From positions 1-64,000 of the forward strand of contig JAHHHD010000029.1 of assembly GCA_019359505.1 (NCBI GenBank): a DNA stretch of 64,000 nt, read 5' to 3'. The notes under the pieces were generated by a model. It worked only from the letters and a program-made list of their open reading frames with translations, had not been told where the DNA came from and searched no databases. The translations under genes were made by a program, and so were the position numbers. This document shows positions 30,688-57,547 of this stretch, in pieces (position 1 is the first letter of the stretch; the number at the start of each line of letters is the position of its first letter). The stretch comes from Drouetiella hepatica Uher 2000/2452. GTDB lineage: Bacteria; Cyanobacteriota; Cyanobacteriia; Elainellales; Elainellaceae.

Positions 30688-30738
30688 CCATACCCTTAAA
30701 ATTGGTATCTCAATTGGTATCTAGGTAAAAGGGTATGG
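30688..30738 (+). promoter_or_regulatory. Repeat-rich operator region at the integrase start
   Basis: The inverted repeat CCATACCCTT (30688-30697) / AAGGGTATGG (30729-30738) covers the ATG at 30735. Between its arms the 10-mer ATTGGTATCT occurs twice (30701-30710 and 30713-30722). This is the arrangement expected of an autoregulatory site, or of recombinase or excisionase binding sites. The function is inferred. Confidence 0.5.
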
Positions 30739-31862
30739 GAAAAAAATCACAGCATGGGACGGTTGCCATTAGCCCATATAAGGATCGGCTGAGGCTGCGG
30801 TGGAGTTACCAAGGCAATCGATATTGTCTATCACTTGAGTTGCCTGACACTCAGGTAAATCGCGTTGTAGCTAGGGGGAAGGCTTCAATTATTGAAGGCG
30901 ATCTGGTCACTGGTAACTTTGACAAAACGCTGACAAAGTATCGTCCTCAGCAGCAACAAGCATCATCAAACCTTTCGATCGCTGAACTGCTAAGGCGGTT
31001 CACAGAATATAAGCGGCGAAACCTGTATGCTCGATCGCTGGACAAGTTCAAGGCATTGCACAAGCCAATCACTGAGTTTTTCAGTGGAAAATCTGCTGCA
31101 TCTATCGATGAGGAATCAGCAGATAATTTCAGGATTTTCCTTGCTCAGAGGCTATCGCCAGCAACGCAGCGCGAACGCCTCACAACGCTGAGCGCTTGCT
31201 GGAAATGGGGACTTAAACAAAAGCTAGTCACCCAGAATCCCTGGACAGAATCGCTCAAACGGGTGAAAGTTCCTCCATCACAGAAGCCCAAACCATTCAC
31301 GAGTCAGGAGATACAAGCAATTTTGACCGAGTTTAGGGGCGATCGCTACTATGCTCATTACGCTGATTTTGTTGAATTTCTACTCTCTACGGGCTGTCGG
31401 ATTGGGGAAGCCATCGCGCTACGTTGGGGGCATTTAGAAGATGACTGCTCTAAGGTCTGGATTGGTGAAAGTATTTCCCGTGGTGGCATCCGTAAGACAA
31501 CCAAAACGAATCGAGCGAGACGCTTTCGATTAACGCCACGGCTGCGACAGATGCTTCTTGATCGGTGCCCTGTCAACTGCCTCGCTGACGCGCTAGTATT
31601 TCCGGCTCCTAAAGGCGGAGTGATTGATGACCACAGATTTTGCAACCGAGCATGGCAGAAAATCATTGCTAAAGCAGGCGTTAAGCATCGGCATCCCTAC
31701 AACTGCCGTCACACCTTCATAAGCCACGCATTAGCCAGGGGAATTGCCCCAATGACGATCGCAGAGATGGTAGGGCATGATCCAGAGGTGTTGTTCAAGC
31801 ACTATGCCGCTGATATTCAAGGCGGATTGCAACTGCCCGATATTTTAGATGACCCCATGTAA
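30735..31862 (+). CDS. Tyrosine recombinase (integrase) of the integrative element
   Basis: 375 residues. An N-terminal arm-binding region (about 1-75, with SPYKDRLRLRWSYQGNRYCLSL) and a SAM-like core-binding domain (about 80-175) precede the catalytic domain. The catalytic residues are Arg222 (STGCRIGEA), Arg325 (PYNCRHTF, with Tyr322 where His is commonest), His348 (MVGHDPEV) and the nucleophile Tyr357 (FKHYAAD). It lies directly after tRNA-Thr and reads away from it, the classic layout for an element integrated in a tRNA 3' end. I take it as the left end of the mobile region. Confidence 0.93.
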   Translation: MGKKSQHGTVAISPYKDRLRLRWSYQGNRYCLSLELPDTQVNRVVARGKASIIEGDLVTGNFDKTLTKYRPQQQQASSNLSIAELLRRFTEYKRRNLYARSLDKFKALHKPITEFFSGKSAASIDEESADNFRIFLAQRLSPATQRERLTTLSACWKWGLKQKLVTQNPWTESLKRVKVPPSQKPKPFTSQEIQAILTEFRGDRYYAHYADFVEFLLSTGCRIGEAIALRWGHLEDDCSKVWIGESISRGGIRKTTKTNRARRFRLTPRLRQMLLDRCPVNCLADALVFPAPKGGVIDDHRFCNRAWQKIIAKAGVKHRHPYNCRHTFISHALARGIAPMTIAEMVGHDPEVLFKHYAADIQGGLQLPDILDDPM

Positions 31863-32794: not shown

Positions 32795-35700
32795 TTATAC
32801 ACCGACATAACTAAAGGCAGCCCAGTGGAAGGGATGGGCAAAGTAGTTGGGGGCAAGTAGTATGAGGGATTGAAAAATGTCAGGGTGAGTACCCTGAAAG
32901 TATTTTGCTTTTTGCTGACTCGTGGTATCTCGCATCCATAGTTGCGCCTGACGCAGAGCATCTGCTGCTTCCCAACCTTCTTTTCGCCAGAGGTCGTAAA
33001 AGCGCACCAGCAGCAGCATGGTACTCAGGTCAGACACTGACCAAAGGGAGGCGACGACTCCAGCAACTCCAGCTTGGAGCAATCCTGTGGGCAGGCTGAT
33101 CGCTTCGTCGGCGTTCTCTGTGCCAGCGAGTCCGGTTTCACAAGCGGAGAGGATAGCGAGGCGGATGCCGCCCTGTTCACTCAGCTTGAGGTCGAGGAGA
33201 TCGCGCAGGGTGAGGAGTCCATCGCTCATGGCAAGTCCACTCGTGAGGGGTTCGTCTAAATTAGCGATGCCGTGGCAGGAGAGATGGAGGATGTTGCAAT
33301 CGGGCAAGGCTGTCAGGACAGATTCGATCGCCGCTTCCTCATGCTTTAGAACTTTGTGCTGGGGGAAGGTGGCAATAGCAGCATTCACCTCACGGCTGGA
33401 GTTGGGCAGATCTTTGAGGGGATTGTCGATCGCCAAAATTGAATCGGCTCTAGTTCGCTGAGCAATATCCTTTGCTGCATTAATGGATTGAGCATTCGGG
33501 GCATAGGTGAAGTGAATCTCGTCTAGGGCGTAGCGTTTGCCATGAGGACGAGTTACATCTTTTGTCCAGGCGGCATGGAGCGGCAGTAAGCTGAGATATC
33601 CGGTGGGGATGAGAGTGACTTGCTGAAACGAGTGCTGTTTGAGGTAATCGATCAGCGGTGCCATCAACGGTTGCCAGAGTTGACGGGTGACTTGATCGAT
33701 CGCATCATACCAACTTTGGCGATCGGTTCGGGATTGATCATAGGCGCTGAACCAAGCAGTAAGGACTTCTCCTAAACTGGTTTGAGTGAGATCATCCAGC
33801 CAAAGATCCACAATGCCAGTTTGAGTAACGATGAGGGCGAGGCTTCCGGTTGGAGTCGGCACAAGATACACCAGGGGAATGCCTGGGCGAATAGCTTGCT
33901 GAATATCATCAAAGCTAGGTTGAGCCAGAAAGTCTGCATAGCCCTCTACTTGGCGGATCTGTTCAATGGTCTGCGTCAGAGTTTGGCGCAGTCGCAAAGC
34001 TTCAGTGCGGAAGGCTTCTGGGGTGAGGTTATGGCGCTCTTCTGAGGTCATCCGCAGTCGCTGTTGGGTTTCCAGGTTGCGGAGCTGTTGAGTAATGTCT
34101 TGATATTGGGTGAAGAGAGCGGGATGCGTTTGCTGAAGTTGGCTGAGATTAGATCGATCGCGATCGAGGGTTTCGCTGAGGCTACGGGCACGACCTTGCT
34201 CCAGGGTGAGGGCAGCATCTTGCAGGTCGCCACTGCGAGCCAAAGCATAGGCAGCCTGACGGGGCAAATCTGCGGTTTCTGCCAGTTCAGCCGCTTTACC
34301 ATCCAACAGGGTGGCGCTTTGGTAGAGGATTTCGGCGGCTTGGAGTGCTTTTTGGTAGATGGGGATGGCTTCTGCCCAACGGTTTTGCTCAGAGTAGAGG
34401 TTGCTCAAGCTGCGAGCTGTCATGCGACAGTTATCAGGCAATAATTCAGGATCATAAATTTCCAAGCTGGACTGATAGGCGGCAATCGCCCGCTCGATGT
34501 TCTCAGCCCGATTGCCTCGAATACGATTCTGGTAGGCGCTTGCCAGGTTATGCATGGTTTGTGCCCAATCGAGGGGCATCGCTGGCCGCGTCCTCACCGT
34601 CAAGGCTTGCTGATAGGCGACAATCGCTTGCTCGATGTTTTCAGCCCGATCGCCTCGAATGCGGTTGGAGTAGGCGTTTGCCAGGTTATGCATGGTTTGT
34701 GCCCAATCGAGGGGCATCGCCTGCTGCGTCCTCACCGTCAAAGCTTGCTCATAGGCGGCAATGGCTTGCTCGATGTTTTCAGCCCGATCGCCTCGAATGC
34801 GGTTGGAGTAGGCGTTTGCCAGGTTTATTATGGTTGTGGCCCAATTGACAGGCATCGCTTGCTGCGTCCTCACCGTCAAGGCGTGCTGGCAGGCATCAAT
34901 CGCTTGCTCAATGTTTTCAGCCCGGTCGCCTCGGATACGGTTGGAGTAGGCGACTGCCAGGTTCATCATGGTTGTGGCCCAATTGACAGGCATCGCTTGC
35001 TGCGTCATCACCGTCAAGGCGTGCTGGTAGGCATCAATGGCTTGCTCAATGTTTTCAGCCCGGTCGCCTCGGATGCGGGAATAGTAAGTAGTTGCCAGGT
35101 TCATCATGGTGAGTGCCCACCCGAGGGGCATCGCTTGCTGCGTCATCACCGTTAAGGCTTGCTGGTAGGTAGCAATGGCTTGCTCGATATTTTCGGCCCG
35201 GTCGCCTCGGATACGGTTGGAGTAGGCGTTTGCCAGGTTCATCATAGTGGCTGCCCAATCGAGGGGCATCGCTTGCTGCGTCCTCACCGTTAAGGCTTGC
35301 TGGCAGGCATCAATCGCTTGCTCGATGTTTTCAGCCCGATCGCCTCGGATACGGTTGGAGTAGGCGTTTGCCAGGTTACTCAGGGTTTGTGCCCAATCGA
35401 GGGGCATCGCTTGCTGCGTCATCACCGTCAAGGCGTGCTGGTAGGTAGCAATGGCTTGCTCGATGTTCTCTGCCCGGTCGCCTCGGATGCGGTCAGAGTA
35501 GGCGACTGCCAGGTTTATCATGGTTATGGCCCAATCGACGGGCATCGCTTGCTGCGTCCTCACCGTCAAGGCGTGCTGGTAGGCGACAATGCCCAATTCT
35601 AGGTTGAGCCAGCGCTTCCCCAAGGGAAATTGCTGAATCAGATTGCCAAAGTTCATGAGAACAGCCGCCACAAACTGCTGTTGCTCAGGGTTGCCTGCCA

Positions 35701-36103
35701 GCAATGCTGCTGCAATCTGGGGCAAGGTTTGCAAAAGCGTTTCATTCAACTGATCCTGGTGCTGTGCCAAAAAGGGATAAACCTGCTGAGCATTGCCCTG
35801 GCTGTCTACCACAAGCTGCAAGACTGCTAGTAGAAATGGGTCTGCATTCTCTAGATTCCCTTCAGTCTGAGTGCTGGTGTCTCCGAGTGCTGTTGCCAAC
35901 CGTTGGGCAAACTGCCGCAACCATTCTGCCTTAGAGTTGCCCTGCTGCTCTAGCCGATCGGCATATTGCTGCATCACCCCCAGCAATCCCGCATCGACTA
36001 GCTCCGTCTGTTGACGCAAAATCGTGCTCTCCTCGCCATCTGCACAGCTCAGGATCTGCTCAATTAGCGCCACATACGCCTGAATTCGCTGCTCATCCAT
36101 CAC
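32795..36103 (-). CDS. TPR-CHAT protease, copy 1
   Basis: 1102 residues. The N-terminal helical region (about 1-165, MMDEQRIQAYVALIEQILSC) precedes nine TPR-like units of 46 residues. Their core is ALTV.TQQAMP.DWA.TM.NLANAYSNRIRGDRAENIEQAI, near-identical in DNA. A linker follows, and then a C-terminal CHAT caspase-fold domain with the dyad His944 (LHLSCHG) and Cys988 (ILSACETG). CHAT proteases cut partner proteins in bacterial immunity (for example Csx29 on Csx30, and gasdermin-activating proteases). TPR arrays usually sense a ligand or partner. Its downstream partner gene is decayed. It is strongly similar to the copy at 44480-47983. Confidence 0.93.
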   Translation of the reverse strand: MMDEQRIQAYVALIEQILSCADGEESTILRQQTELVDAGLLGVMQQYADRLEQQGNSKAEWLRQFAQRLATALGDTSTQTEGNLENADPFLLAVLQLVVDSQGNAQQVYPFLAQHQDQLNETLLQTLPQIAAALLAGNPEQQQFVAAVLMNFGNLIQQFPLGKRWLNLELGIVAYQHALTVRTQQAMPVDWAITMINLAVAYSDRIRGDRAENIEQAIATYQHALTVMTQQAMPLDWAQTLSNLANAYSNRIRGDRAENIEQAIDACQQALTVRTQQAMPLDWAATMMNLANAYSNRIRGDRAENIEQAIATYQQALTVMTQQAMPLGWALTMMNLATTYYSRIRGDRAENIEQAIDAYQHALTVMTQQAMPVNWATTMMNLAVAYSNRIRGDRAENIEQAIDACQHALTVRTQQAMPVNWATTIINLANAYSNRIRGDRAENIEQAIAAYEQALTVRTQQAMPLDWAQTMHNLANAYSNRIRGDRAENIEQAIVAYQQALTVRTRPAMPLDWAQTMHNLASAYQNRIRGNRAENIERAIAAYQSSLEIYDPELLPDNCRMTARSLSNLYSEQNRWAEAIPIYQKALQAAEILYQSATLLDGKAAELAETADLPRQAAYALARSGDLQDAALTLEQGRARSLSETLDRDRSNLSQLQQTHPALFTQYQDITQQLRNLETQQRLRMTSEERHNLTPEAFRTEALRLRQTLTQTIEQIRQVEGYADFLAQPSFDDIQQAIRPGIPLVYLVPTPTGSLALIVTQTGIVDLWLDDLTQTSLGEVLTAWFSAYDQSRTDRQSWYDAIDQVTRQLWQPLMAPLIDYLKQHSFQQVTLIPTGYLSLLPLHAAWTKDVTRPHGKRYALDEIHFTYAPNAQSINAAKDIAQRTRADSILAIDNPLKDLPNSSREVNAAIATFPQHKVLKHEEAAIESVLTALPDCNILHLSCHGIANLDEPLTSGLAMSDGLLTLRDLLDLKLSEQGGIRLAILSACETGLAGTENADEAISLPTGLLQAGVAGVVASLWSVSDLSTMLLLVRFYDLWRKEGWEAADALRQAQLWMRDTTSQQKAKYFQGTHPDIFQSLILLAPNYFAHPFHWAAFSYVGV

Positions 36104-37220: not shown

Positions 37221-40200
37221 CTAACGCCACTGACTACAAACCTCCCGCATGGCTTGCACCATTTGCTGCAAGGCTGCCTTACCTGCTAGAGCGGTAATTA
37301 GGGGTTCCATCTCTACCAGGACTGGCATCAATTCTGAGCGCTTGAGGCGTGACAGGATATGCAGAGTGTTACACCAACAATCAATATCCGATGAAACAAG
37401 GTGCAGCCTGGGTAGAAATCCTGCGAATGCGGTTGCTTGATAGTAACTATCCTGAATCTGGCGGGTCATCTCTAAGGCTTCGCTCAGCAGTGATTCTGGC
37501 AGATGGGGCACCAACTCACGCAACGCACTCGATCGGGAAAACTCATCCTGAATCTGGCGGGTCATCTCTAAGGCTTCGCTCGCTAGCTCTGGCAGATGGG
37601 GCACCAACGCACGCAACGCACTCGATCGGTAAAACTCAGACTGAATCTGGCGGGTCACTTCCAAGGCTTCGCTCGCCAGCTCTGGCAGATGGGGCACCAA
37701 CGCACTCAACACAATCGATCGGGAAGACTCATCCTGAATCTGGCGGGTCATCTCTAAGGCTTCGCTCGCTAGCTCTGGCAGATGGGGCACCAACGCAATC
37801 AACGCAATCGATCGGGAAGACTCATCCTGAATCTGGCGGGTCATCTCTAAGGCTTCGCTCGCCAGCTCTGGCAGATGGGGTACCGACGCACTCAACGCAA
37901 TCGATCGGGAAAACTCATCTTGAATCTGGCGGGTCACTTCTAGGGCTTCACTCGCCAGCTCTGGCAGATGGGGCACCAACGCACGCAACGCACGCGATCG
38001 GGAAGACTCAGACTGAATCTGGCGGGTCACTTCTAGGGCTTCGCTCAGCAGTGATTCTGGCAGATGGGGCACCAACACACGCAACGCACGCGATCGGGAA
38101 TCCTCAGACTGAATCTGGCGCGTCACTTTCAAGGCTTCGCTCGCCAGCTCTGGCAAATGGGGCACCAACGCACTCAACGCAATCGATCGGGAAAACTCAT
38201 CTTGAATCTGGCGGGTCACTTCTAGGGCTTCGCTCAGCAGTGATTCTGGCAGATGGGGCACCAACACACGCAACGCACGCGATCGGGAATCCTCAGACTG
38301 AATCTGGCGGGTCACTTCTAGGGCTTCGCTCAGCAGTGATTCTGGCAGATGGGGTACCAACTCACTCAACGCACGCGATCGGGCATCCTCATCTTGAATC
38401 TGGCGGGTCACTTCTAGGGCTTCGCTCAGCAGTGATTCTGGCAGATGGGGTACCAACTCACTCAACGCACGCGATCGGGAAGACTCAGACTGAATCTGGC
38501 GCGTCACTTCCAAGGCTTCGCTCAGCATCGACTCTGGCAGATAGGGCACCAACGCACTCAACGCACGCGATCGGGCATCCTCAGACTGAATTTGTCGGGT
38601 CACTTCCAAGGCTTCGCTCAGCATCGACTCTGGCAGATGGGGCACCAACTCACTCAACGCACTCGATCGGTAATCCTCAGACTGAATCTGGCGAGTCACT
38701 TCCAAGGCTTCGCTCAGTAGCGATTCTGGCAGATGGGGCACCAACTCACTCAACGCCCACGATCGGTCATCCTCATTCTGAATTTGGCGGGTCACTTCCA
38801 AGGCTTCGCTCGCCAGCTCTGGCAGATGGGGCACTAACGCACTCAACGCAATCGATCGGGAATCCTCAGACTGAATCTGGCGCGTCACTTCCAAGGCTTC
38901 GCTCGCCAGCTCTGGCAGATGGGGCACTAACGCACTCAACGCAATCGATCGGGAATCCTCAGACTGAATCTGGCGCGTCACTTCCAAGGCTTCGCTCAGC
39001 AGTGATTCTGGCAGATGGGGCACCAACTCACTCAACGCACTCGATCGGGAATCCTCAGACTGAATCTGGCGAGTCACTTCCAAGGCTTCGCTCAGCAGTG
39101 ATTCTGGCAGATGGGGCACCAACTCACTCAACGCACTCGATCGGGAATCCTCAGACTGAATCTGGCGAGTCACTTCCAAGGCTTCGCTCAGCAGTGATTC
39201 TGGCAGATGGGGCACCAACTCACTCAACGCACTCGATCGGGAAGACTCAGACTGAATCTGGCGGGTCACTTCCAAGGCTTCGCTCAGCAGTGATTCTGGC
39301 AGATGGGGCACCAACTCACTCAACGCACTCGATCGGGAATCCTCAGACTGAATCTGGCGGGTCACTTCCAAGGCTTCGCTCGCCAGCTCCGGCAGATGGG
39401 GCACCAACGCACTCAACGCAATCGATCGGGAATCCTCAGACTGAATCTGGCGAGTCACTTCCAAGGCTTCGCTCAGCATCGACTCTGGCAAACAGGGAGC
39501 GAGGGCGACGATCGCCTCTGCTCGTGAACTAGCTTGTTGAATTTGCTGGACATAGGCTAGTCCCTGAATCGGTTGCCAATGTCCCTTTTGTACCAGCGCG
39601 GCGATCAACTCTGGCGGCAAGTTACTCGCCAAACTATTCAAAGAAGCTGTGATTAGGGTATGGCGGCACTGTAAGTTAATTGCCGTCAACGGCTCATCCG
39701 CATAGAGCGTCTCTGCCAATCGCCAAGCTCGCGCTATGTCCGTGACAAAGTTCGCAGTCAATCCCAAACGTTCACAAGCCTCATACCAGCCATTGCGCCC
39801 TGCTGCTGTGGACTCTTGCAGAAGCTGGTGAATGGCCTCGGGTTGAGCTGCCTGTTCAAAATGCCAGGTAAGGTGCTTGTGGATATAGCCGTCATCCGGC
39901 AGCATGTGCCACAGTCCCTGCTGTGTTTTGGCTCGAAATTGCTCCAGCACTTGGGCATGAGCCTGGGTTAGCGCCAGCCCCAATCCTGGCAAGTCATGGG
40001 CATTCTCTGGAGTAGGGCTGCTCGTTAGCAATCGTTTTGCCAGATCATGCATCAGGTCATGTAGACGGTAGGTTCGCTGCCCCTCTGCTTGGGATGCGCC
40101 TGCCAGCACCAGAGCACGCGAGCGAAACCCGCGCAGAATCGTGCCTGCCTGCCGAGGACTCACTTGCCACAGCGTTGCTGCTACTGGCTCCGTAGTCAAG

Positions 40201-41849
40201 ACATCTTCCGGCAGTACCCCAAACCAAGCAAATTGCCGCTGCTGTTCAGGCGAGAGGCGTTGCACGCTCAAGTTAAGGGAGGCAAGCAAACTATATCGCT
40301 TCTGCTGGGTCTGGCTGGTGGCAGCACCAGGGCGATCAAAAGTTTCCAGACGGGCAATCTCTGCTCGCAAATCTTCCAGCAGCTCGCTAAAGGTAATGCC
40401 CTCTTCAATCTGTGCAGCTGCCAGTTCTAGCGCTAGGGGCAAGTGTCCTACTTCTTGCGCTAGCTCTGCGGCCTGCTGCTGTTCCATTAGCGTCAGAGCG
40501 CGATTACATTGCTTGTCCAGCAAGTCCCGCGATTGCTCTGGGGTCATCACATTGAGGTTGTGACGTTGGGCATCCGGGATATCTGCCTCTCTAGTGGTGA
40601 CCAGAAGCCGACAGCCCGAGCTACCCACTTGAAACGGAGACACATGATCCGGGTTCCAGGCATCGTCTACCACCAGCAGCATCTGTTTGTCATGCAACAG
40701 CGTCCGCAGGTGAGTCGATGCCATCTCGACCGTGATCGGCTTGAAATCCCGATCGCCCAATGCCTGAATCCAGCCGCTCAGAAACGAAAGGATATCTGGC
40801 TCTTGTCCCAGAGTCACCCACAGGATGCCATCACCAAAGCGAGCTTGCACCTCCAGGTCATGGGCGATCGCCGCTGCCAACACCGACTTGCCAATGCCCC
40901 CAAGACCATAGATAGCACTCACAACCAGCGTGCCAGGGGTATGCCCGTTTTCAGTCAGCAGCTTCGCTTTAATCGCTTGTTGCTGTTCCGGTCGAGCAAC
41001 AAAGTGAGTCGGCAAAGGGGGAACCTGAAAAGGAATCCCAAAAGACCTTTGAGGAAGTCTTGTTTCACTGCGATCTGCCGCGTCCAGAAGCAGGGATGGG
41101 GCATATTCGACGATCGCCAGCGTCCCACCCAATCCCATGTAGAAGGGTTCCTGTCCTTTGCCTTGCACATCAGCACTGACAAAGGAATACAGCCGATTGG
41201 CATCAATTTTCCCTTGCTCATTCGCTTGCTGAGGTGCCAACCCTGCCAGCACCGCTCCGGTAAAAATGCCGTGCTCCGCTTCTTCATAGGCTATTTCACT
41301 GCTGCGGCAAGCCGTGATCAGGAAAGAGTCAGTTTTGTTCAGGAAAGTCGTGAGGCTATTTTGGATCAGCCCTCTCTCTAGCCGCAGCTCTAAGATTGAA
41401 CCCGCGTGACAGCAATCAAGCAACATCACAAAGCTGCTCAATTGTGCCGTGTTGATCTGACTGTTCAATGCCTGAAAGGGGTAGGCATTTTGCCCGTTCG
41501 TCAGAGAATCCGATGCGGCTAGATACCCGGTTGGCTCTACACCAGGAATCGGGCTAGCAATGTTCAACCCATGCCCCGCAAAGTAGATTAACGCATCATG
41601 CCCCTTTGCCGTATCCGTCAAGAACCGATGAATGGCTTGACCCAGATCCGCTAACGTTAACCGACGATTATCGACAAAGTATCGTTGCTCGGATTCATTC
41701 CAGCCTTCCGGCAGTCGCTGCACCTTCTCAAACCGACCGTGAGCTTCTAAAAGATCGGCGATCGCATTCGCATCCGATACCGCTTTATCTAGCTTTCGCA
41801 ATTTGTCGTACTGAGCAATCCCAATCACCAGCGCATATCGCCGTGCCAT
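37221..41849 (-). CDS. Caspase (peptidase C14)-NB-ARC receptor with 22 leucine-rich-like repeats
   Basis: 1542 residues. Residues 1-240 are a metacaspase/C14 domain with dyad His93 (IYFAGHGLN) and Cys147 (LLDCCHAGS). Residues about 280-620 are an NB-ARC STAND ATPase: P-loop GLGGIGKS at 315-322, MLLVVDDAW, LLVTTRE and GHLPLALELAA. A helical region (about 620-795) leads to 22 tandem 31-32-residue helical repeats, then a short cap. The plan matches bacterial NLR-like immune receptors: repeats sense, NB-ARC oligomerises, caspase executes. The repeats are nearly identical in DNA. It heads a minus-strand operon and is divergent from a Trypco1 gene. Confidence 0.93.
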   Translation of the reverse strand: MARRYALVIGIAQYDKLRKLDKAVSDANAIADLLEAHGRFEKVQRLPEGWNESEQRYFVDNRRLTLADLGQAIHRFLTDTAKGHDALIYFAGHGLNIASPIPGVEPTGYLAASDSLTNGQNAYPFQALNSQINTAQLSSFVMLLDCCHAGSILELRLERGLIQNSLTTFLNKTDSFLITACRSSEIAYEEAEHGIFTGAVLAGLAPQQANEQGKIDANRLYSFVSADVQGKGQEPFYMGLGGTLAIVEYAPSLLLDAADRSETRLPQRSFGIPFQVPPLPTHFVARPEQQQAIKAKLLTENGHTPGTLVVSAIYGLGGIGKSVLAAAIAHDLEVQARFGDGILWVTLGQEPDILSFLSGWIQALGDRDFKPITVEMASTHLRTLLHDKQMLLVVDDAWNPDHVSPFQVGSSGCRLLVTTREADIPDAQRHNLNVMTPEQSRDLLDKQCNRALTLMEQQQAAELAQEVGHLPLALELAAAQIEEGITFSELLEDLRAEIARLETFDRPGAATSQTQQKRYSLLASLNLSVQRLSPEQQRQFAWFGVLPEDVLTTEPVAATLWQVSPRQAGTILRGFRSRALVLAGASQAEGQRTYRLHDLMHDLAKRLLTSSPTPENAHDLPGLGLALTQAHAQVLEQFRAKTQQGLWHMLPDDGYIHKHLTWHFEQAAQPEAIHQLLQESTAAGRNGWYEACERLGLTANFVTDIARAWRLAETLYADEPLTAINLQCRHTLITASLNSLASNLPPELIAALVQKGHWQPIQGLAYVQQIQQASSRAEAIVALAPCLPESMLSEALEVTRQIQSEDSRSIALSALVPHLPELASEALEVTRQIQSEDSRSSALSELVPHLPESLLSEALEVTRQIQSESSRSSALSELVPHLPESLLSEALEVTRQIQSEDSRSSALSELVPHLPESLLSEALEVTRQIQSEDSRSSALSELVPHLPESLLSEALEVTRQIQSEDSRSIALSALVPHLPELASEALEVTRQIQSEDSRSIALSALVPHLPELASEALEVTRQIQNEDDRSWALSELVPHLPESLLSEALEVTRQIQSEDYRSSALSELVPHLPESMLSEALEVTRQIQSEDARSRALSALVPYLPESMLSEALEVTRQIQSESSRSRALSELVPHLPESLLSEALEVTRQIQDEDARSRALSELVPHLPESLLSEALEVTRQIQSEDSRSRALRVLVPHLPESLLSEALEVTRQIQDEFSRSIALSALVPHLPELASEALKVTRQIQSEDSRSRALRVLVPHLPESLLSEALEVTRQIQSESSRSRALRALVPHLPELASEALEVTRQIQDEFSRSIALSASVPHLPELASEALEMTRQIQDESSRSIALIALVPHLPELASEALEMTRQIQDESSRSIVLSALVPHLPELASEALEVTRQIQSEFYRSSALRALVPHLPELASEALEMTRQIQDEFSRSSALRELVPHLPESLLSEALEMTRQIQDSYYQATAFAGFLPRLHLVSSDIDCWCNTLHILSRLKRSELMPVLVEMEPLITALAGKAALQQMVQAMREVCSQWR
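37395..39467 (-). repeat. In-gene array of 22 units of 93 or 96 bp
   Basis: The unit encodes ALEVTRQIQSEDSRS, then ALSELVPHLP followed by ELASE (31 residues) or ESLLSE (32 residues). 21 units are almost uniform, and the last is degenerate (QIQDSYYQATAF). Differences concentrate at unit positions 10-13, 16 and 19-20 (SEDSRSS, DEFSRSI, NEDDRSW, SEDYRSS and so on). DNA identity between units is very high, which indicates recent expansion or gene conversion and explains the long open frame on the opposite strand. Confidence 0.95.
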
Positions 41850-44479: not shown

Positions 44480-47400
44480 CTACACACCAACATAATGAAA
44501 GGCAGCCCAATGGAAAGGATGGGCGAAACTTTTATCTTGCGAACCATATCTATAGACGTAATCAATCATGAACTCCTTCAGTAACTCATTAGTCTCACCG
44601 ATCGTCATTTGTTGAGTATCAGCAAGTTCTTGAAAAACATCCTTAAGATAATCGTACTTCTGAATATTCGTCGTATCTCGTACCCACTGTTGCGCCTGAC
44701 GCAGAGCCTGGGAAATGTCCAATTCCTCATTGCGCCAAAAGTCATAAAACCGCGTTAGCAGCAGCATCGTACTCAGATCAGACACAGCCCAAAGCGAGGC
44801 AGCCACGCCTGCTACCCCTGCTTGCAGCAACCCTGTAGGTAAGCTGATCGCCTCATCTGCCAGGTCAATTCCCGCCAGTCCGGTTTCACAGGCGGAGAGG
44901 ATAGCGAGACGAATGCCGCCCCTATTCTCTTCAGCCAGCTTAAGGTCGAGGAGATTGCGTAGGGTAATCAGTCTATCGCTCATCATGAGTCCACTGGTCA
45001 GAGGATCACGCAGATTGGCAGTGCCATGACAGGCAAGATGGAGGATGTTGTAGTGGGGCAAGGCTGTCAGGACAGATTCGATCGCCGCTTCCTCATGCTT
45101 TAGAACTTTGTGCTGTGGGAAGGTGGCAATAGCAGCATTCACCTCACGGCTGGAGTTGGGCAGATCTTTGAGGGGATTGTCGATCGCCAACATCGAATCT
45201 GCTTCAGTTCGCTGAGCAATATCTTTTGCTGCGTTAATGGATTGGGCATTAGGGGCATAGGTGAAGTGAATCTCGTCTAGGGCGTAGCGTTTGCCATCGG
45301 GACGGGTTGCATCTTCTGTCCAGGCGGCGTGGAGCGGCAGCAAGCTGAGATATCCGGTGGGGATGAGAGTGGCTTGCTGAAATGAGTGTTGTTTGAGATG
45401 GTCAATCAGCGGTGCCATCAATGGTTGCCAGAGTTGACGAGTGCCTTGATCGATCGCATCATACCAACTTTGGCGATTAGTTTGAGATTGGCTGTAGGCA
45501 TTGAACCAAGCAGTAAGGACTTCTCCCAAACTGGTTTGAGTGAGATCATCCAGCCAAAGATCGGCAATGCCGGTTTGGTTAACGATCAGGGCAAGGCTTC
45601 CGGTTGGAGTCGGCACAAGATACACCAGGGGAATGCCTGGACGAATAGCTTGCCGAATATCATCAAAGCTAGGTTGAGCCAGAAAGTCTGCATAGCCCTC
45701 TACTTGGCGGATCTGTTCAATGGTCTGCGTCAGAGTTTGGCGCAGTCGCAAAGCTTCAGTGCGGAAGGCCTCTGGGGTGAGGCTATGGCGTTCCTCTGAA
45801 GTCATCCGCAGGCGTTGTTGAATTTCCAGGTTGCGGAGCTGTTGAGTAATGTCTTGGTATTGGGTAAAGATCTCTGGATCAGTCTGTTGCAGTTGGCTGA
45901 GGTTAGATCGATCCCGGTCGAGGGTTTCGCTGAGGCCACGGGCACGACCTCGCTCCAGCGTCAAAGCCGCCTCTTGCAAGTTGCCAGTGTGAGCCAGAGC
46001 ATAGGCAGCCCGCCGGGGCAAATCGGCGGTTTCTGTCAGTTCAGCAGCTTTACCATCTAGTAGGTTGGCACTTTGATAGAGAATTTCAGCAGCTTGTAGT
46101 GCCATCTGATAACTGGGAATAGCCTCTTGCCATCGCTGTTGCTTACTAAAGAGATTAGCTAAACTGGCCGCAGATCTACGACAATTATCGGGCAACAGCC
46201 TCGGCTTAAAAATCTCTAAGCTACTTTGGTAGTGAGCTATAGCTTGCTCAATATTACTGGCACGCTTCCCTCCAACACGATTCTTATACGTGGTTGCCAG
46301 GTTCATCATGGTGGTTGCCCAATCCACTGGCATTTCCGTTTTGGTTCTGACTGTCAGGGCTTTCTGGTAAGCTGAAATCGCTTGCTCCAGGTTCTCGGCT
46401 CGATCTCCTTGAATGCGTTGAGCGTATACATTTGCCAAATTACTCATAGATTGAGACCAATCCATTGGCATCTCCGTTTCAGTGGTCACCGTTAGGGCTT
46501 GCTGGTAGGCTAAAATCGCCTGCTCTAGGTTTTCTGCCCGATCCCCTCGGATACGGTCAGCATATGCGAGTGCCAAGTTATTCATAGTGGTTGCCCAATC
46601 CACTGGCATTTCCGTTTTGGTTCTGACTGTCAGGGCTTGCTGGTAGGCTGAAATCGCTTGCTCCAAATTTTCCGCCCGGTCTCCCCGAACACGGTCAGCA
46701 TAGGCAAGTGCCAAATTATTCATGGATTGGGCCCAATCCACTGGCATTTCCGTTTTGGTTCTGACTGTCAGGGCTTGCTGATAGGCTGAAATCGCTTGCT
46801 CCAGGTTCTCCGACCGATCCCCTCGAATGCGGCATTGATAGGAAATTGCCAAGTTATTCATAGTGGCGGCCCAATCCACTGGCATTTCTGTTTTGGTTCT
46901 GACTGTCAGGGCTTGTTGACAGGCTGAGATCGCTTGCTCCAAATTCTCTGCCCTATCCCCTCGGATTCGATCAACGTAGGCGAGTGCCAGGTTATTCATG
47001 GTGGTTGCCCATAGTGCCGGACTCTCCATTTCGATTCTCACTGTCAAGGCTTGTTGGTAGGTTGAAATCGCTTTCTCTAAATTTTCCGCTCGATTCTCTC
47101 GAATGCGTAAATAATAGGCGGTCGCTAGGTTCATCATGCTCGCAGCCCAATCCACTGGCATTTCTGTTTTGGTTCTCACCATTAGGGCTTGCTGATAGGC
47201 TGAAATTGCTTTCTCCAAATTTTCCGCTCGATTCCCTCGGATTCGATCAGCATAGGCAAGCGCCAGGTTATTCATGCTCGCAGCCCAATCCACTGGCATT
47301 TCTGTTTTGGTTCTCACCATTAGGGCTTGCTGATAGGCTGAAATTGCTTTCTCTAAATTTTCCGCTCGATTCCCTTGGATTCGATCAGCGTAGGCAAGCG

Positions 47401-47983
47401 CCAGGTTATTCATGGTAGTGGCCCACAGTTCTGAAGAAGTATCACTGGTAAAGACTTGCAACGCCAATTCGCAAGCAGCAATACCCAACTCCAGATTTAG
47501 CCATCGAGTACCTAAGGGAAATTGGTTAATTAAACTGCCGAAGTTGACCAACGTAGCCGCTACACTCGGTCGCTGATCTACATCTTTGTTAAATAACCAC
47601 GCTCCTATATAGGGCAGGACTTCTAACAATACTGTACTCAACTGCGCTTGCTGCTGTGCCCACACTGGATAGATCTGCTGAGGATCTCCTTGGTTATCTG
47701 CCACCAACTGCAACATCTCTAGCAAAAATTTTGTGGCGTCTTCCCATCCTGTGGATTCAACTTTTTCTAATAACTGCGCCAACTGCGCTGCAAATCCCCG
47801 CAACCACCCAGCATTACTATCGCCCTGGCTCTCCAAACTCGCGGTGACTTGCTCCATCACCGTCACCAGCTCCGCATTTACTAATTCTGCGTTCGCCTGC
47901 AATAGCGCTGCCTCCTGCCCCTGCGGACAGCCCAGCAGTTTCTCAATTAGTGACACATAGGCTTGCAGCCGTTGCTCATCCAT
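44480..47983 (-). CDS. TPR-CHAT protease, copy 2
   Basis: 1167 residues with the same plan as copy 1: an N-terminal helical region (MDEQRLQAYVSLIEKLLGC), about ten 46-residue TPR-like units (ALTVRTKTEMPVDWA.TMNNLALAYADRIRGDRAENLEQAI), a linker, and a CHAT domain with dyad His986 (LHLACHG) and Cys1032 (ILSACETG). The linker and CHAT domains of the two copies are nearly identical, while the repeats have diverged (QQAMP against KTEMP). The copies may therefore share output and differ in what they sense. A 20-residue insertion lies near the C-terminus (ELADTQQMTIGETNELLKEF). It heads an operon with the zinc-ribbon and membrane proteins. Confidence 0.93.
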   Translation of the reverse strand: MDEQRLQAYVSLIEKLLGCPQGQEAALLQANAELVNAELVTVMEQVTASLESQGDSNAGWLRGFAAQLAQLLEKVESTGWEDATKFLLEMLQLVADNQGDPQQIYPVWAQQQAQLSTVLLEVLPYIGAWLFNKDVDQRPSVAATLVNFGSLINQFPLGTRWLNLELGIAACELALQVFTSDTSSELWATTMNNLALAYADRIQGNRAENLEKAISAYQQALMVRTKTEMPVDWAASMNNLALAYADRIRGNRAENLEKAISAYQQALMVRTKTEMPVDWAASMMNLATAYYLRIRENRAENLEKAISTYQQALTVRIEMESPALWATTMNNLALAYVDRIRGDRAENLEQAISACQQALTVRTKTEMPVDWAATMNNLAISYQCRIRGDRSENLEQAISAYQQALTVRTKTEMPVDWAQSMNNLALAYADRVRGDRAENLEQAISAYQQALTVRTKTEMPVDWATTMNNLALAYADRIRGDRAENLEQAILAYQQALTVTTETEMPMDWSQSMSNLANVYAQRIQGDRAENLEQAISAYQKALTVRTKTEMPVDWATTMMNLATTYKNRVGGKRASNIEQAIAHYQSSLEIFKPRLLPDNCRRSAASLANLFSKQQRWQEAIPSYQMALQAAEILYQSANLLDGKAAELTETADLPRRAAYALAHTGNLQEAALTLERGRARGLSETLDRDRSNLSQLQQTDPEIFTQYQDITQQLRNLEIQQRLRMTSEERHSLTPEAFRTEALRLRQTLTQTIEQIRQVEGYADFLAQPSFDDIRQAIRPGIPLVYLVPTPTGSLALIVNQTGIADLWLDDLTQTSLGEVLTAWFNAYSQSQTNRQSWYDAIDQGTRQLWQPLMAPLIDHLKQHSFQQATLIPTGYLSLLPLHAAWTEDATRPDGKRYALDEIHFTYAPNAQSINAAKDIAQRTEADSMLAIDNPLKDLPNSSREVNAAIATFPQHKVLKHEEAAIESVLTALPHYNILHLACHGTANLRDPLTSGLMMSDRLITLRNLLDLKLAEENRGGIRLAILSACETGLAGIDLADEAISLPTGLLQAGVAGVAASLWAVSDLSTMLLLTRFYDFWRNEELDISQALRQAQQWVRDTTNIQKYDYLKDVFQELADTQQMTIGETNELLKEFMIDYVYRYGSQDKSFAHPFHWAAFHYVGV

Positions 47984-49598: not shown

Positions 49599-50267
49599 AT
49601 GCCCAAATCCGATCGCAGTGGACAAGCCGAAGTTTTAAGCCCCGATCAACTGAATCACCTCTGGCAAAATCTAGAGCAGCCGCACCGACTGATCACCCAA
49701 ATTTGCTATTACTCTGGCAGTCGCATTGGTGAAGTCTGTCAGCTCCGCGCCGAAGATATCAAGAATGCTCAGATTGTGTTTCGATCGCCCAACACGAAAA
49801 CGAAGCAAACAAAAACAGTGGACATGGCTCCGCCCTTGCGATCGCTCTTAGACCAGGCGACTCTGCCTAAAGTTGGCTACCTGTTCCCGGCGGCTCCCAC
49901 CACTAGAACGAAGCGTAAGATCTACCGGATCGATCGCGCCTCTGACACAGCAGGTCGGGTTGATGTCCGCACGAATAAGCCGATTCAAAATCACTTCACT
50001 GTCGTGGGGGAAATCGATCGCCAGTTCCTCAGCACTCAGGCAGTCGATAAAGCATTGAGGAAAGCTTGCAAGGCGATCGGGCTGGATGGTGTGAGTACCC
50101 ATACCTTTAGGCGAAGTCTGGCAACTCATCTGTATCGGGGTGGTGTGCCGCTGCGAACGATCATGGCAATCACCGGGCATAAAAGCTTGGCATCGCTCAC
50201 GCTCTATATCAACCTGGAGCAGGGTGAGGCTAAGGATGCTTTGTTTGAATTCTTTAAGGCGGGTTAG
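49599..50267 (+). CDS. Short tyrosine recombinase (catalytic domain only)
   Basis: 222 residues forming a complete catalytic domain: Arg42 (YSGSRIGEVCQLR), the HxxR box His168/Arg171 (VSTHTFRRSLATH), His194 (ITGHKSLA) and the nucleophile Tyr203 (SLTLYINL). The N-terminal core-binding domain of ordinary integrases is missing. The protein opens at MPKSDRSGQAEVLSPDQL with the family's usual catalytic-domain start, so it seems to be a natural short form and not a truncation. It may act as a resolvase of the element or rearrange a local site. Confidence 0.88.
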   Translation: MPKSDRSGQAEVLSPDQLNHLWQNLEQPHRLITQICYYSGSRIGEVCQLRAEDIKNAQIVFRSPNTKTKQTKTVDMAPPLRSLLDQATLPKVGYLFPAAPTTRTKRKIYRIDRASDTAGRVDVRTNKPIQNHFTVVGEIDRQFLSTQAVDKALRKACKAIGLDGVSTHTFRRSLATHLYRGGVPLRTIMAITGHKSLASLTLYINLEQGEAKDALFEFFKAG

Positions 50268-51100: not shown

Positions 51101-51351
51101 TTTTAACAGTTACCACTACGTTTTTAGCCTCTGTGCCATATCGTACTCTCAGAGGCATCTACGAGGCTCGTAGACAGGCGATAGGTTCGAGTGATGAACT
51201 ATCCGCGATCAGTGCGCTGTGGCTTGGAGGCGAAAAATGTGATCTGGGCGGTTTTTGGTGTGCGCGATCGCCTGTCTGTAGCGCCAAGAACAATATCCGT
51301 CGATCGGAAAAGCTAGTACGCTTGATCAACCGATCACACCGGAGATTCCTG

Positions 51352-53286
51352 ATGCCTAAGCCCGTATCGCAGCCCAGCCTGTTTGACTCGATCGTCGTGG
51401 GAGCAATTCAGCTTCCCGTCCATCTCATTGATCCGCACCCGTTGAACCCTCGCCCCCAGAGCGATCGCTACGGTTGCCGCGTGGATGACGAAAAAGTAGA
51501 AGAACTCATCAGCCTGATTCAGTCCAAGGGATACGACGAGTCAGAGCCGATCGCAGTCAGGAAGATAGGTGATCGCTATCAACTCCTCCGAGGGCATCAC
51601 CGCTGGATTGCAGTCAAGGAAATCGGCAATAGCTCTATCCCTGCTGTTATTCGTGAGATGGATGACAAGGAGGCGGCGATCGCGCTTCTCACCATGCAAG
51701 GTAAGGAAGTTGATTCCTGGAGTCGTGCCATTCATGCCTATGACTGCTGTAAGGCTTATGGTGGCGATGGGCTGATGACGGTGAGTGAGTATGCCGAGAT
51801 GGTGGGGAAGCAGCAACCTGCAATTACAAAAGCAATCCAAGCGAGTGAAATAGTGAAGTGTATTCCCGTGGGAATACACTCTCTATCGGTTCGTGCTGCA
51901 ACAGACATCGCTGCCCTCCCTGAGTCAGATTGGCGGTGGTTCGCGGAGCTGTGCATCGGTCAGGAATGGGGAGAAAAGGAACGTAGTGCAGCTATTAAGG
52001 CAGTCAAAGCGATCGACATTCCTGAATTTCTCACCCATTGGCTCAGCCCTAAATACTGGAAGAACGAGGCGGCAATAAATACTGTCGGTGGGCAGAACCG
52101 TATCCCTACAGACGTTGCCAATTGGGTGAAGGCTGCAACTGAGTGCTTCGAGAAACTGCCATCCGATCGCCCTATTTGGAAGTTCAAAGATGATCGACCT
52201 TACCAGGAACCCATCAACCTGCAAGAGAGATTCTTAGCTGCACTTCCCTCCATCAAAAACCCCAGCGCAACGAAAGCCCAGGCGTTACAGGCTTCTCTTC
52301 TCAAAGAGGTCAAGGAACTCGATCGCCTCTATGCCGAGTGGGAGAATAAGCAGAAATCTCAGCAGCAACAGCAGCAACTTGAAGAGGAAAGGCTGCTGGC
52401 TCAACGTGCGATCGAGGCTGAATACTCCCCCATTGGATTCAACGGCAACGTCACCGACTGGGAGTTTGAGCCTGAATCGTTTGATGCCATCATCACCGAC
52501 CCGCCTTACCTCCTCAGCAATGACGGGCATACTGTGCGATCGGGCAAACAGGTATCAGTTAACAAGAACTTTGAAGATAAGGTAGGTGTAGCGATCGATC
52601 CTTCTGTCTGGGTGCCGATCGCAGCTAAAGCCTTGAAGCCTGGAGGTTGCCTGGTCGTCACCTGCACTGAAGCGCTGCTATACCGAGCTGATTTACACGG
52701 AGTCTGTGAAGAGTCGGGACTAGAACTGAGACAAACCCTGATCTGGGATAAGCCAAACGCGCCACCGCTGCTAAGTGCCGATCGCTGTGCCCAGAACTTT
52801 GAGTTCATCTATGTTGCGCTCAAGCCCGGAGCCAAACCGTACTTTGGCTATGAGGATGTAATGCGCGAAGGGAAACAGGCTAAAGCTGTTATTAGCCACA
52901 TTCCCCAGTGTGGGGGGAAAGAGCGCTTGGGGTGGCATGACACGCAGAAGCCGCTAGAGCTAGGAGAGCTGCTAACGCTGATGTATGTCCCACCTGGCGG
53001 TCGAGTAGCGGATCTGTTCGCAGGGACAGCGACATTTACTGTTGCGGCAAAACGACTGGGCAGGAAATCTGCATGGGTGGAGCAAGACCCTGAATTCTTC
53101 GCTAAAGCAGATTCTAGGATTGAGGCTGAGTCGTTCCCTGTTCTGGAGATTCCTGCGATACGAGCTTCGCTCAGGCAGACCAACGCCCCATCCCTCCCGG
53201 ATATAGCAGAACCCGCTCCTCCTGACGGAGCTGAGCGCCAGACCAGCACCCAGGCGAGAAAGCGAAGAAAGAAAGTTACTGCCTGA
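51352..53286 (+). CDS. ParB-like nuclease domain fused to DNA methyltransferase
   Basis: 644 residues from the ATG at 51352 (MPKPVSQPSLFDSIVVGAIQLPVHLIDPHPLNPR). Residues about 15-90 are a ParB/Srx-type domain with the box LLRGHHRWIA, followed by a KorB/ParB-like HTH region (about 125-170, VSEYAEMVGKQQPAITKAIQAS). The C-terminal half is an N4/N6-type DNA methyltransferase: TDPPYLLSND around residue 383, and the SAM-binding DLFAGTATFTVAAKRLGR around 551, that is motif IV before motif I. Such fusions are typical of phages and integrative elements. The frame extends 73 codons upstream without recognisable similarity. Confidence 0.88.
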   Translation: MPKPVSQPSLFDSIVVGAIQLPVHLIDPHPLNPRPQSDRYGCRVDDEKVEELISLIQSKGYDESEPIAVRKIGDRYQLLRGHHRWIAVKEIGNSSIPAVIREMDDKEAAIALLTMQGKEVDSWSRAIHAYDCCKAYGGDGLMTVSEYAEMVGKQQPAITKAIQASEIVKCIPVGIHSLSVRAATDIAALPESDWRWFAELCIGQEWGEKERSAAIKAVKAIDIPEFLTHWLSPKYWKNEAAINTVGGQNRIPTDVANWVKAATECFEKLPSDRPIWKFKDDRPYQEPINLQERFLAALPSIKNPSATKAQALQASLLKEVKELDRLYAEWENKQKSQQQQQQLEEERLLAQRAIEAEYSPIGFNGNVTDWEFEPESFDAIITDPPYLLSNDGHTVRSGKQVSVNKNFEDKVGVAIDPSVWVPIAAKALKPGGCLVVTCTEALLYRADLHGVCEESGLELRQTLIWDKPNAPPLLSADRCAQNFEFIYVALKPGAKPYFGYEDVMREGKQAKAVISHIPQCGGKERLGWHDTQKPLELGELLTLMYVPPGGRVADLFAGTATFTVAAKRLGRKSAWVEQDPEFFAKADSRIEAESFPVLEIPAIRASLRQTNAPSLPDIAEPAPPDGAERQTSTQARKRRKKVTA

Positions 53287-56338: not shown

Positions 56339-57547
56339 TTAGGAGTTGGATTGAGCGGACTTGAGGACGGGAACGCAGTCGCCTGCCACTCCTGCCATGG
56401 CGATCGCATTGCAGCCCAACTGGTAGGCAAACGTGACCGACTCGCCTGCACCCAGGGCATCGTAAAACGCCACGGCAAATTCCAGAGCCGCTGCCCCGCT
56501 CATCGCGTCACTCATGCCAATCACAGCGGGAATATGTTGGGCGATCGCTTCTGCCTGGTTCTCTGAGTAGCAAGCATTCAACAAGACGCACTCGATTTGC
56601 TGGGCAAACAGAGCAAACAGTCCGGCGAGTGCCACAGGAGCTACCCATTGAACGTTGCCGATGTCATCTTCTAGCGCCAGCGCTCCGCCCGCTCCCGTCT
56701 GCCCAGAAAAATGGACAATCTGCGGCTTCAATTCCAGCAGTGCCCGCCGCACATCTCTAGGTCGCACTGCCCAGCGTTGCTCCAACACAAAGCGATCGCG
56801 CTGCTTGGCGAGCTGCAATCCTTCCCGAATATCCCGCACTTCTTGATCCAGGCGCTGCGGGGTCATGCTTTGGGGATTGGCTGCCAGAAACAAGATCGTT
56901 TTGGCTTCAGGTGGCTTATCTGCTGCCGGTTGCGACTGGATGTGCGTACTGCCGATATAGACCGTGCCGCCTTCGACGCGCGTTTGATATCCCGTGCTGT
57001 TGCCAGAGTTGTATTGTTTCATCCCATCTGAGGCGACCGGAGTTTTGGGCTGGGATGCGGCTGGCGCGATCGGCTCGCGAGCTGAAGTAAACGTCGCCAC
57101 CACCGCTCGAATGCCTTGAGCCACATTGGCAAAGGCTTCATCCTCATTTGGCCAACGGGTAATCGGTTTGCCGCCCTTGGGCAGCGCCTGGAGCTTACCA
57201 AACGGACTCTGATCCCAGTTGTCCACAGGTCGCAGGATGATCGGAATCACGCGCGCGTCTCCCGCTTCGTGCCGTTCCAGCGCTCGCTTCATCTCAATGT
57301 CATAGCAGTAGTCGGAGGCGAGGAAGTCGGCGCTGATCAGCAGCAGAATGATTTGAGCCGTTTCTAAATGACGATCGAGCTGCCCTTGCCATTCCGTACC
57401 GGGTAGAATCTGGCGATCGTGCCAACCCTGGATCACGCCCTGTCGCTCTAACAGCTTCAGATGTTTAGCCAGTTTGTCTCGCAAGCTTTCATCTTCATGG
57501 GCATAGGAGAAGAAGACTTCGATTGCTGGAGGGGTGGGGGCGGTCAT
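56339..57547 (-). CDS. TIR-CHAT protein with substituted CHAT His
   Basis: 402 residues. Residues 9-150 are a TIR domain (VFFSYAHEDESLRDKL; the NADase-type Glu85 in DYCYDIEM is kept). Residues 186-202 are the linker motif GYQTRVEGGTVYIGSTH, shared with neighbouring genes. Residues about 215-395 are a CHAT/caspase-like domain with Cys326 (VLLNACYSEN), but the usual HFSGHG reads HFSGQT, so Gln283 replaces the catalytic His. The codon is CAG. I infer an active TIR NADase and a CHAT fold used for binding. It lies between two NB-ARC-TPR genes on the same strand. Confidence 0.9.
   Translation of the reverse strand: MTAPTPPAIEVFFSYAHEDESLRDKLAKHLKLLERQGVIQGWHDRQILPGTEWQGQLDRHLETAQIILLLISADFLASDYCYDIEMKRALERHEAGDARVIPIILRPVDNWDQSPFGKLQALPKGGKPITRWPNEDEAFANVAQGIRAVVATFTSAREPIAPAASQPKTPVASDGMKQYNSGNSTGYQTRVEGGTVYIGSTHIQSQPAADKPPEAKTILFLAANPQSMTPQRLDQEVRDIREGLQLAKQRDRFVLEQRWAVRPRDVRRALLELKPQIVHFSGQTGAGGALALEDDIGNVQWVAPVALAGLFALFAQQIECVLLNACYSENQAEAIAQHIPAVIGMSDAMSGAAALEFAVAFYDALGAGESVTFAYQLGCNAIAMAGVAGDCVPVLKSAQSNS

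Follow-up and report, generated by a model that had tools for sequence, protein, structure and literature searches.

The locus and the encoded protein

The gene under study lies within a 27.5-kb island (32795–60306) of the window, by which we mean the whole stretch of 64,000 nucleotides that was analysed. The island also encodes two CHAT proteins, two NB-ARC-TPR proteins and one TIR protein (Table 1) and, with integrases, a ParB-N protein and the TIR protein among the genes, the neighbourhood looks like a conflict or mobile island. Pfam places Peptidase_C14 and NB-ARC domains in one 1542-residue frame with the repeat array, which bears out the fusion of caspase and NB-ARC with repeats proposed in the preliminary description of this DNA.

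Table 1. Features of the receptor gene and its neighbours (window positions; aa, residues of the receptor)
Feature	Positions	Strand	Remarks
Whole gene	37221–41849	−	single open frame, 1542 aa: caspase, NB-ARC, helical domain, repeat array, C-terminal cap
Caspase, Peptidase_C14, N-terminal, aa 3–235	41145–41843	−	Pfam 1.4e-17
NB-ARC STAND NTPase, aa 291–487	40389–40979	−	Pfam 1.2e-23
APAF1_C-like helical stretch, aa 627–677	39819–39971	−	Pfam 22.4 bits, below cut-off 22.8
Degraded unit 0, aa 761–792	39474–39569	−	ahead of array
21 near-identical 31/32-aa units, aa 793–1455	37485–39473	−	hypervariable codons 12, 14, 15, 18, 21, 22; two end types
Unit 22, aa 1456–1487	37389–37484	−	first third kept, remainder diverged
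C-terminal helical cap, aa 1488–1542, and stop	37221–37388	−	
Two CHAT proteins, near-identical 46-residue TPR-like units	32795–36103, 44480–47983	−	7 and 5 units examined
Two NB-ARC proteins, near-identical 42-residue TPR units	53540–56263, 57682–60306	−	5 and 4 units examined
Among the genes: two phage-type integrases, ParB-N/DNA methylase protein, TIR protein	30735–31862, 49599–50267, 51133–53286, 56339–57547	+, +, +, −	

An N-terminal effector, a central NTPase with nucleotide-binding motifs and C-terminal repeats, as seen in the Pfam matches, motif strings and array, give the protein the build of an NLR-like STAND protein. We take GLGGIGKS at residue 315 to be the P-loop and LLVVDDAW at residue 391 to be Walker B-like, and LHDLMHDL at residue 596, beyond the NB-ARC domain, is presumably an MHD-like motif. 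The caspase domain contains His 93 within a GHG motif and Cys 146–Cys 147 within DCCHAG, and from caspase motifs we assume His 93 and Cys 147 to be the catalytic residues. A phmmer search against solved structures returned only three myosin matches that were judged spurious, and for this reason the caspase residues were checked by aligning relatives. The His-Cys pair appears intact, because His 93 aligned with His and Cys 147 with Cys in all nine aligned relatives. The caspase model was the sole PADLOC match of the protein. Identity as an EACC1-associated caspase was rejected, the score for model NF047832 (78.3 bits) falling under the cut-off of 140. Pfam detected neither EAD4 nor an EAD of any other kind in the window protein, and a canonical TPR or HEAT sequence family was rejected since none of its six Pfam matches belongs to one. 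The C-terminal tails of relatives are similar by eye to that of the window protein.

Repeat units and their variable positions

TRF places the array at 37452–39490 (period 96, 21.5 copies, 89% matches), and with this copy number over ~2 kb it has the near-identical repeats over at least 100 residues that characterise the fungal-type high-internal-conservation NLRs. The unit start 'SEAL' occurs 22 times, and 21 units are near-identical. The preliminary description had counted 22 such repeats; 21 stand, the 22nd retaining its first third only, and a degraded unit also precedes the array. Its unit length of 31–32 residues is accurate, with 31 residues in nine of the 21 units (ending ELA) and 32 in twelve (ending ESLL or ESML). 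Mean amino acid identity is 0.79 across 23 units, both degraded ones counted. The unit number was taken from an 87-contig assembly and is read as assembled. No second copy of the array was found in the genome, and a bank of donor units elsewhere in the genome was rejected, the only matches outside the array being three weak ones within a single further protein (44, 38 and 38% identity).

Replacements are concentrated at codons 12, 14, 15, 18, 21 and 22, referred to below as the stripe. These correspond to the variable positions 10–13, 16 and 19–20 of the preliminary description, which counted from the A of 'ALEV' and is thus lower by two, with the exception of its position 11 (position 13 here), an invariant Glu in 21/21 units. 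Among the 21 window units the stripe has a pN of 0.338 and a pS of 0.004, and the other 23 positions have a pN of 0.012 and a pS of 0.205; the earlier statement that the rest is almost invariant even in DNA therefore applies to replacements, but not to silent sites. Over positions 1–29 of these units, the stripe holds 4.73 of the 5.37 replacement differences per unit pair and 0.01 of the 3.50 silent ones. By amphipathy, positions 2, 5, 8, 9, 11 and 26 are probably exposed as well, and they hardly vary in the window. The variants take the form NNT at codons 12, 14 and 21, NNT plus one TGG at codon 18, NNC at codon 15 and GNG at codon 22. Codons 16–17 read CGATCG in all 21 units. We take this hexamer to be the centre of the HIP1 repeat of cyanobacteria; the window contains 249 copies of it where 14.3 would be expected. 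GCGATCGC has 85 copies in the window, none of them in the array.

The same positions vary in other cyanobacterial arrays of this unit type. In 12 other arrays the six positions defined in the window were on average more variable than the rest, with a mean entropy difference of +0.79 bits that was equalled or exceeded by 1 of 200,000 random sets, and the per-position rank correlation with the window was positive in all 12 (p<0.05 in seven). For this test the first and last units were trimmed where an array had more than eight, and the window was represented by its 21 near-identical units; L066_1_5802, L068_1_4524 and L078 (4–5 units each) were omitted from the position tests, the duplicate records L059, L061–L063, L065 and L128 were not recounted, and the L058 array is cut by a contig end. 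In ten further arrays, several of them orthologous to each other, the six positions were again more variable (p<=0.02 in 10/10). Here, positions 15 and 18 were among the six most variable in all ten arrays, 14 in nine, 12 in eight, 22 in four and 21 in three, and position 11, which is constant in the window and outside the stripe, in seven. The ten-array test, like the distinct-variant and linkage tests described below, used arrays with first and last units trimmed and the 21 near-identical units of the window. In L090, a second young array of 22 units with 86% mean identity, five of the six most variable positions are 12, 14, 15, 18 and 21. Positions 12, 14, 15 and 18 are the common variable core of the unit family, and the variable positions are a property of this family, not confined to the window array.

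The unit profile (E 1e-8) matches 5 of 116 cyanobacterial genomes sampled across the phylum, and a single two-unit query matches 3 of 36 genomes in the order, the window's own being included in each case; both counts are lower bounds, since genomes in which arrays do occur, G009, G012 and G025 for example, escaped the two-unit query. The NB-ARC part has homologues more widely (63/217 in one family and 7/12 in one genus), with arrays read at the named loci only. The part ahead of NB-ARC and array in nine scanned relatives is EAD4 in four, trypsin in one and has no recognised domain in four; such swapping of the N-terminal domain, while NB-ARC and array stay the same, favours an effector that is modular and a sensor whose type is constant. 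Ahead of the NB-ARC domain, some relatives (L068, L069 and L070) have linkers rich in Gly and Asp, for example with repeated GDxVxGDxI, or a GGTANIAETI motif at the N terminus; we regard these as reminiscent of NLR-associated amyloid motifs. At L078 (G000:C60:118000-132000), a 1495-residue frame that is vWA-like by eye contains five weakly related 31/32-residue units. A plasmid gene of Nostocales cyanobacterium HT-58-2 (L066, CP019637.1) appears to be split, with two frames of same-type units ~1 kb apart. A phage origin was rejected: no IMG/VR stretch carried the six peptide patterns, and the two records of a phage collection that match the window protein do so in the caspase part only.

Silent changes, unit turnover and predicted structure

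Each codon variant was scored once in the distinct-variant test, because inherited changes would otherwise count repeatedly. On this basis the stripe of the window array has 14N:0S versus 5N:14S at the other 23 codons (Fisher p=1.5e-5), with p<0.05 in only three of 12 arrays. The window is one of eight arrays, out of 13, in which stripe pN exceeds the pS of the remaining codons; the same holds for all ten further arrays, and stripe pN falls below this pS in L064, L060, L069, L072 and the four-unit L068. In the young arrays the ratio of stripe pN to the silent rate is 1.65-fold (window), 3.96 (L090) and 5.87 (L123). Between the orthologues L067 and L091 the stripe shows 12N:0S in 16 matched units versus 13:9 upstream (one-sided Fisher 0.0095), and between L088 and L123 17N:2S in seven matched units versus 32:30 upstream, with N and S rounded for this pair (one-sided Fisher 0.0024). 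These two of seven pairs were used as the independent ones and give a combined p of 2.6e-4. Matched units share at least 90% nucleotide identity and, in reordered arrays, are pairs by similarity whose orthology is unproven. Stripe pN (0.049 for L067/L091 and 0.168 for L088/L123) is also higher than upstream pS (0.027 and 0.091). Counted position by position, as the preliminary description had proposed, replacement and silent changes thus separate the six codons from the rest, and between orthologues the stripe changes mostly by replacement. The counts favour selection for change, and relaxed constraint could raise the same N:S ratios.

Within the window array, r2 between variable sites drops with distance inside the unit (p=0.0036). 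This decay reached p<0.05 in three of six arrays, the window included, and in seven of ten further arrays, and with the four-gamete measure the distance effect reached p<0.05 in four of the six. Linkage that decays with distance inside the unit implies that units recombine, which supports the exchange between units put forward earlier as unit shuffling or gene conversion. Adjacent window units are more alike than in shuffled order (34 of 20,000 shuffles), units 4/5 and 6/7 are DNA-identical pairs, and multi-unit blocks are repeated in L090 and L125.

Unit number and order, whose comparison had been suggested in the same description, were compared between orthologues of different genomes and differ at 94–97% upstream identity. 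L067, L091 and L120 have 27, 22 and 18 units with 97% identity across the 500 residues before the array, and L121 and L122 (24 and 23 units) are 87–90% identical to this group over the same region. L088 and L123 have 16 and 18 units at 94% identity, and L124 and L125 have 21 and 29 at 79–85%, again over the 500 residues before the array; L089, with 13 units, was compared with L088 over 160 residues and is 96% identical there. Two orthologues located at contig ends, L126 and L127, yielded fewer than four units and were dropped. In the L067 group conserved units keep their order while blocks are gained or lost, and the nearest unit lies in the same array in 23/104 cases versus 20.4 expected; at this chance level, turnover proceeds by gain and loss of blocks and not by homogenisation. 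In the L088 group (L088, L089 and L123) the arrays are reordered and the nearest unit is mostly in the same array, in 28/41 cases versus 13.3 expected. Four L. boryana records contain identical genes, as do two Fremyella/Tolypothrix records. Change is therefore not fast on the time scale that separates these records, which we take to be sub-cultures of single isolates.

An AlphaFold2 model of twelve units, built with a seven-row alignment, is an α-solenoid of alternating helices with a mean pLDDT of 94. Helix B spans unit positions 13–26 in this model, with position 12 just ahead of it. The five stripe positions in helix B centre ~170 degrees from Leu 20, Leu 23 and Leu 27, a one-sidedness that 42 of 2,002 position sets reach. 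The antiparallel helix pairs of the model stack into a solenoid as in HEAT proteins, and the best superpositions among the 50 listed PDB matches, by TM-score normalised by the model, are with HEAT solenoids (PP2A scaffold 0.68, CAND1 0.67 and importin-β 0.64); the two lowest E-values in this list belong to designed repeat proteins with poor superposition. A model of the whole C-terminal part (pLDDT 82, residues 1–28 and 43–102 below 50) was used for the helix pattern only. The mapping on a predicted solenoid that had been suggested as a check thus puts the variable residues on one face of helix B, opposite the conserved leucines. Judged from amphipathy, the stripe would lie on the side of helix B that is exposed in a HEAT-like solenoid. 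Helix B lines the concave side in HEAT solenoids, and by analogy the stripe may be placed there too.

A proposed diversified receptor and its alternatives

We consider it likely that the gene encodes a bacterial NLR-like sensor that has been diversified by duplication, loss and exchange of units under selection, as in fungal NLRs. The N:S counts, the turnover between orthologues and the exposed face all support the sensor surface diversified under selection that the preliminary description envisaged, in which both the selection and the sensing are putative.

How the variable codons arise bears on this reading. Their first and second bases vary and the third is fixed (NNT, NNC, GNG), as AAY template codons predict, so that a diversity-generating retroelement might be thought to write them. 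No RVT_1 match was found in the genome, however, which is 99.78% complete, while the same search was positive in 3 of 14 control genomes. Nor was a template repeat found there, a degenerate unit pattern with up to three mismatches hitting the 21 units only. Moreover, the adenines of GAG13 and CGA16, inside the variable stretch, are fixed in 21/21 units though CGN would be silent, and in relatives the third bases at variable codons are mixed. The array was rejected as a retroelement target on these grounds, and such an origin is scarcely credible. It is very improbable, too, that near-identity or unit count is an artefact of assembly or reflects a nascent, functionless amplification. Short-read assemblies can misjoin such repeats (PMC12222747), and the contigs of two relatives, G032:C146 and G168:C156, do end within a few units of the array start. 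Yet arrays of this kind are found inside megabase contigs (L088, L090, L120, L122, L124 and L125), the reading frame has no interruption, and the silent changes that distinguish units are scattered over many codons.

Structural constraint alone might account for the pattern if the solenoid core were conserved, the exposed face drifted and a recent amplification kept the rest identical, with neither selection for diversity nor sensing. The exposed faces of repeat proteins vary in general, and such an account is consistent with the five of 13 arrays in which stripe pN is lower than the pS of the remaining codons, with the non-significant distinct-variant test in nine of 12 arrays, and with positions 6, 11, 19 and 26, which are also among the most variable in relatives. 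We nevertheless find it unlikely, given that the other probably exposed positions are nearly fixed in the window, that stripe pN exceeds the silent rate in the three young arrays, and that the two orthologue pairs show an excess of replacements in the stripe over their upstream regions and a stripe pN above upstream pS. A receptor of the same build, diversified in the same way, may instead serve within-species self/non-self recognition or developmental cell death in the filament, and not the sensing of phages or parasites. Fungal NLRs with near-identical repeats function in heterokaryon incompatibility (PMC12222747, PMC4986451), and a similar role has been proposed for diversified bacterial systems (PMC10907252). 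The neighbouring integrases, TIR, CHAT-TPR and NB-ARC-TPR genes fit a conflict island but do not decide between the two roles; we regard the self/non-self or developmental role as possible, if somewhat doubtful.

For the preferred reading, that of a sensor diversified under selection, a mechanism can be proposed. The variable stripe on the second helix of each unit would let the array bind a ligand, which is most likely a protein of an invader. Binding would relieve the NB-ARC switch, upon which NB-ARC would oligomerise and activate the attached caspase, and the resulting proteolysis would probably lead to cell death or arrest. Every step past the array is drawn by analogy, and both the ligand and an immune or defence role of the window receptor are putative; the switch is proposed on the model of APAF-1 and antiphage STAND proteins, which are established families (PMC7159879, PMC10907252). 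New specificities may arise through duplication and loss of units and through exchange of unit segments inside the array, by unequal crossing-over or gene conversion, with selection favouring replacements in the stripe and removing them elsewhere. Bacterial NLR-like proteins are usually viewed as sensors of conserved phage structures. If this reading holds, filamentous cyanobacteria diversify sensors by recombining their own repeats, like fungal NLRs, at fixed and predictable residues; a search for ligands, evolution experiments and tests of specificity would become directly possible, and there would be a retroelement-free path to diversity in prokaryotic immunity.

In antiphage STAND proteins of the Avs and bNACHT types, an effector is followed by a STAND NTPase and a C-terminal sensor. 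The window receptor shares this three-part layout, with NB-ARC instead of NACHT and with a putative sensor. High internal conservation in fungal NLRs has been described for the WD40 repeats of HET-D, HET-E and HNWD and for ANK and TPR NLRs of Podospora (Dyrka 2014, PMC4986451; Ament-Velasquez 2025, PMC12222747). The units are near-identical there as here; the fungal repeats have a few codons under diversifying selection (on the concave side in the TPR model) and are polymorphic in number, and concerted evolution has been proposed for them (PMC4986451, PMC12222747). The replacement-rich stripe and the differing unit numbers of close orthologues may be the counterparts of these features. The window receptor differs in being bacterial, in its HEAT-like α-solenoid of 31/32-residue units and in its fused caspase. 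WRAP (Npun_R6612) of Nostoc punctiforme, a WD40 propeller with 14 blades in which six of ten point mutations fall at one blade position, is likewise a cyanobacterial STAND protein with nearly identical repeats, for which rapid turnover, a role in innate immunity and a link to TIR/caspase STAND proteins have been described or proposed; a variable surface of several positions and reordering of units between orthologues are found here, and neither is described for WRAP in the cited portions of these accounts (PMC6805158, PMC9218822). Conflict systems with effector-associated domains (Kaur 2020, PMC7159879) also include caspases and trypsins, and EAD4 precedes NB-ARC in four of our nine relatives; variation there is described as arising through retroelements or acquired diverse modules, whereas in the window protein the caspase is fused to the receptor and no EAD was matched. 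The sensors of multicellular bacteria diversified by retroelements (Dore 2024, PMC10907252) are candidate antigen sensors carried by STAND proteins and their like. Set positions are diversified in them, as here, but by reverse-transcriptase mutagenesis of a lectin fold; neither reverse transcriptase nor template was found for the window receptor, and its repeats have a different fold. Near-identical repeats in STAND proteins have thus already been described in fungi and in WD40 propellers of cyanobacteria, as far as the cited parts of this literature go (PMC4986451, PMC12222747, PMC6805158, PMC9218822). Among the titles listed by searches of open-access PMC papers, none reports a prokaryotic α-solenoid STAND protein with fixed hypervariable positions or unit turnover. 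Within this scope, the α-solenoid form, its fixed variable stripe and the turnover of its units among close orthologues appear to be new.

The array might even embody a combinatorial recognition code, in which positions 12, 14, 15 and 18 (and 21 and 22) let every 31/32-residue unit recognise a single stretch of an extended ligand, and new specificities are made by cutting, duplicating and splicing units in one gene; we think this improbable. Were the code true, it would be a retroelement-free counterpart of antigen-receptor diversification, and the other repeat receptors of the island would be under the same regime. In the two NB-ARC-TPR genes, positions 11, 24, 31 and 34 vary in both (entropy >0.8), these being exactly the variable positions of the first gene. 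Because the second gene has seven more among its four units, we treat the shared positions as a lead, not a result. In the two CHAT proteins positions 10, 17 and 21 vary in both, besides others.
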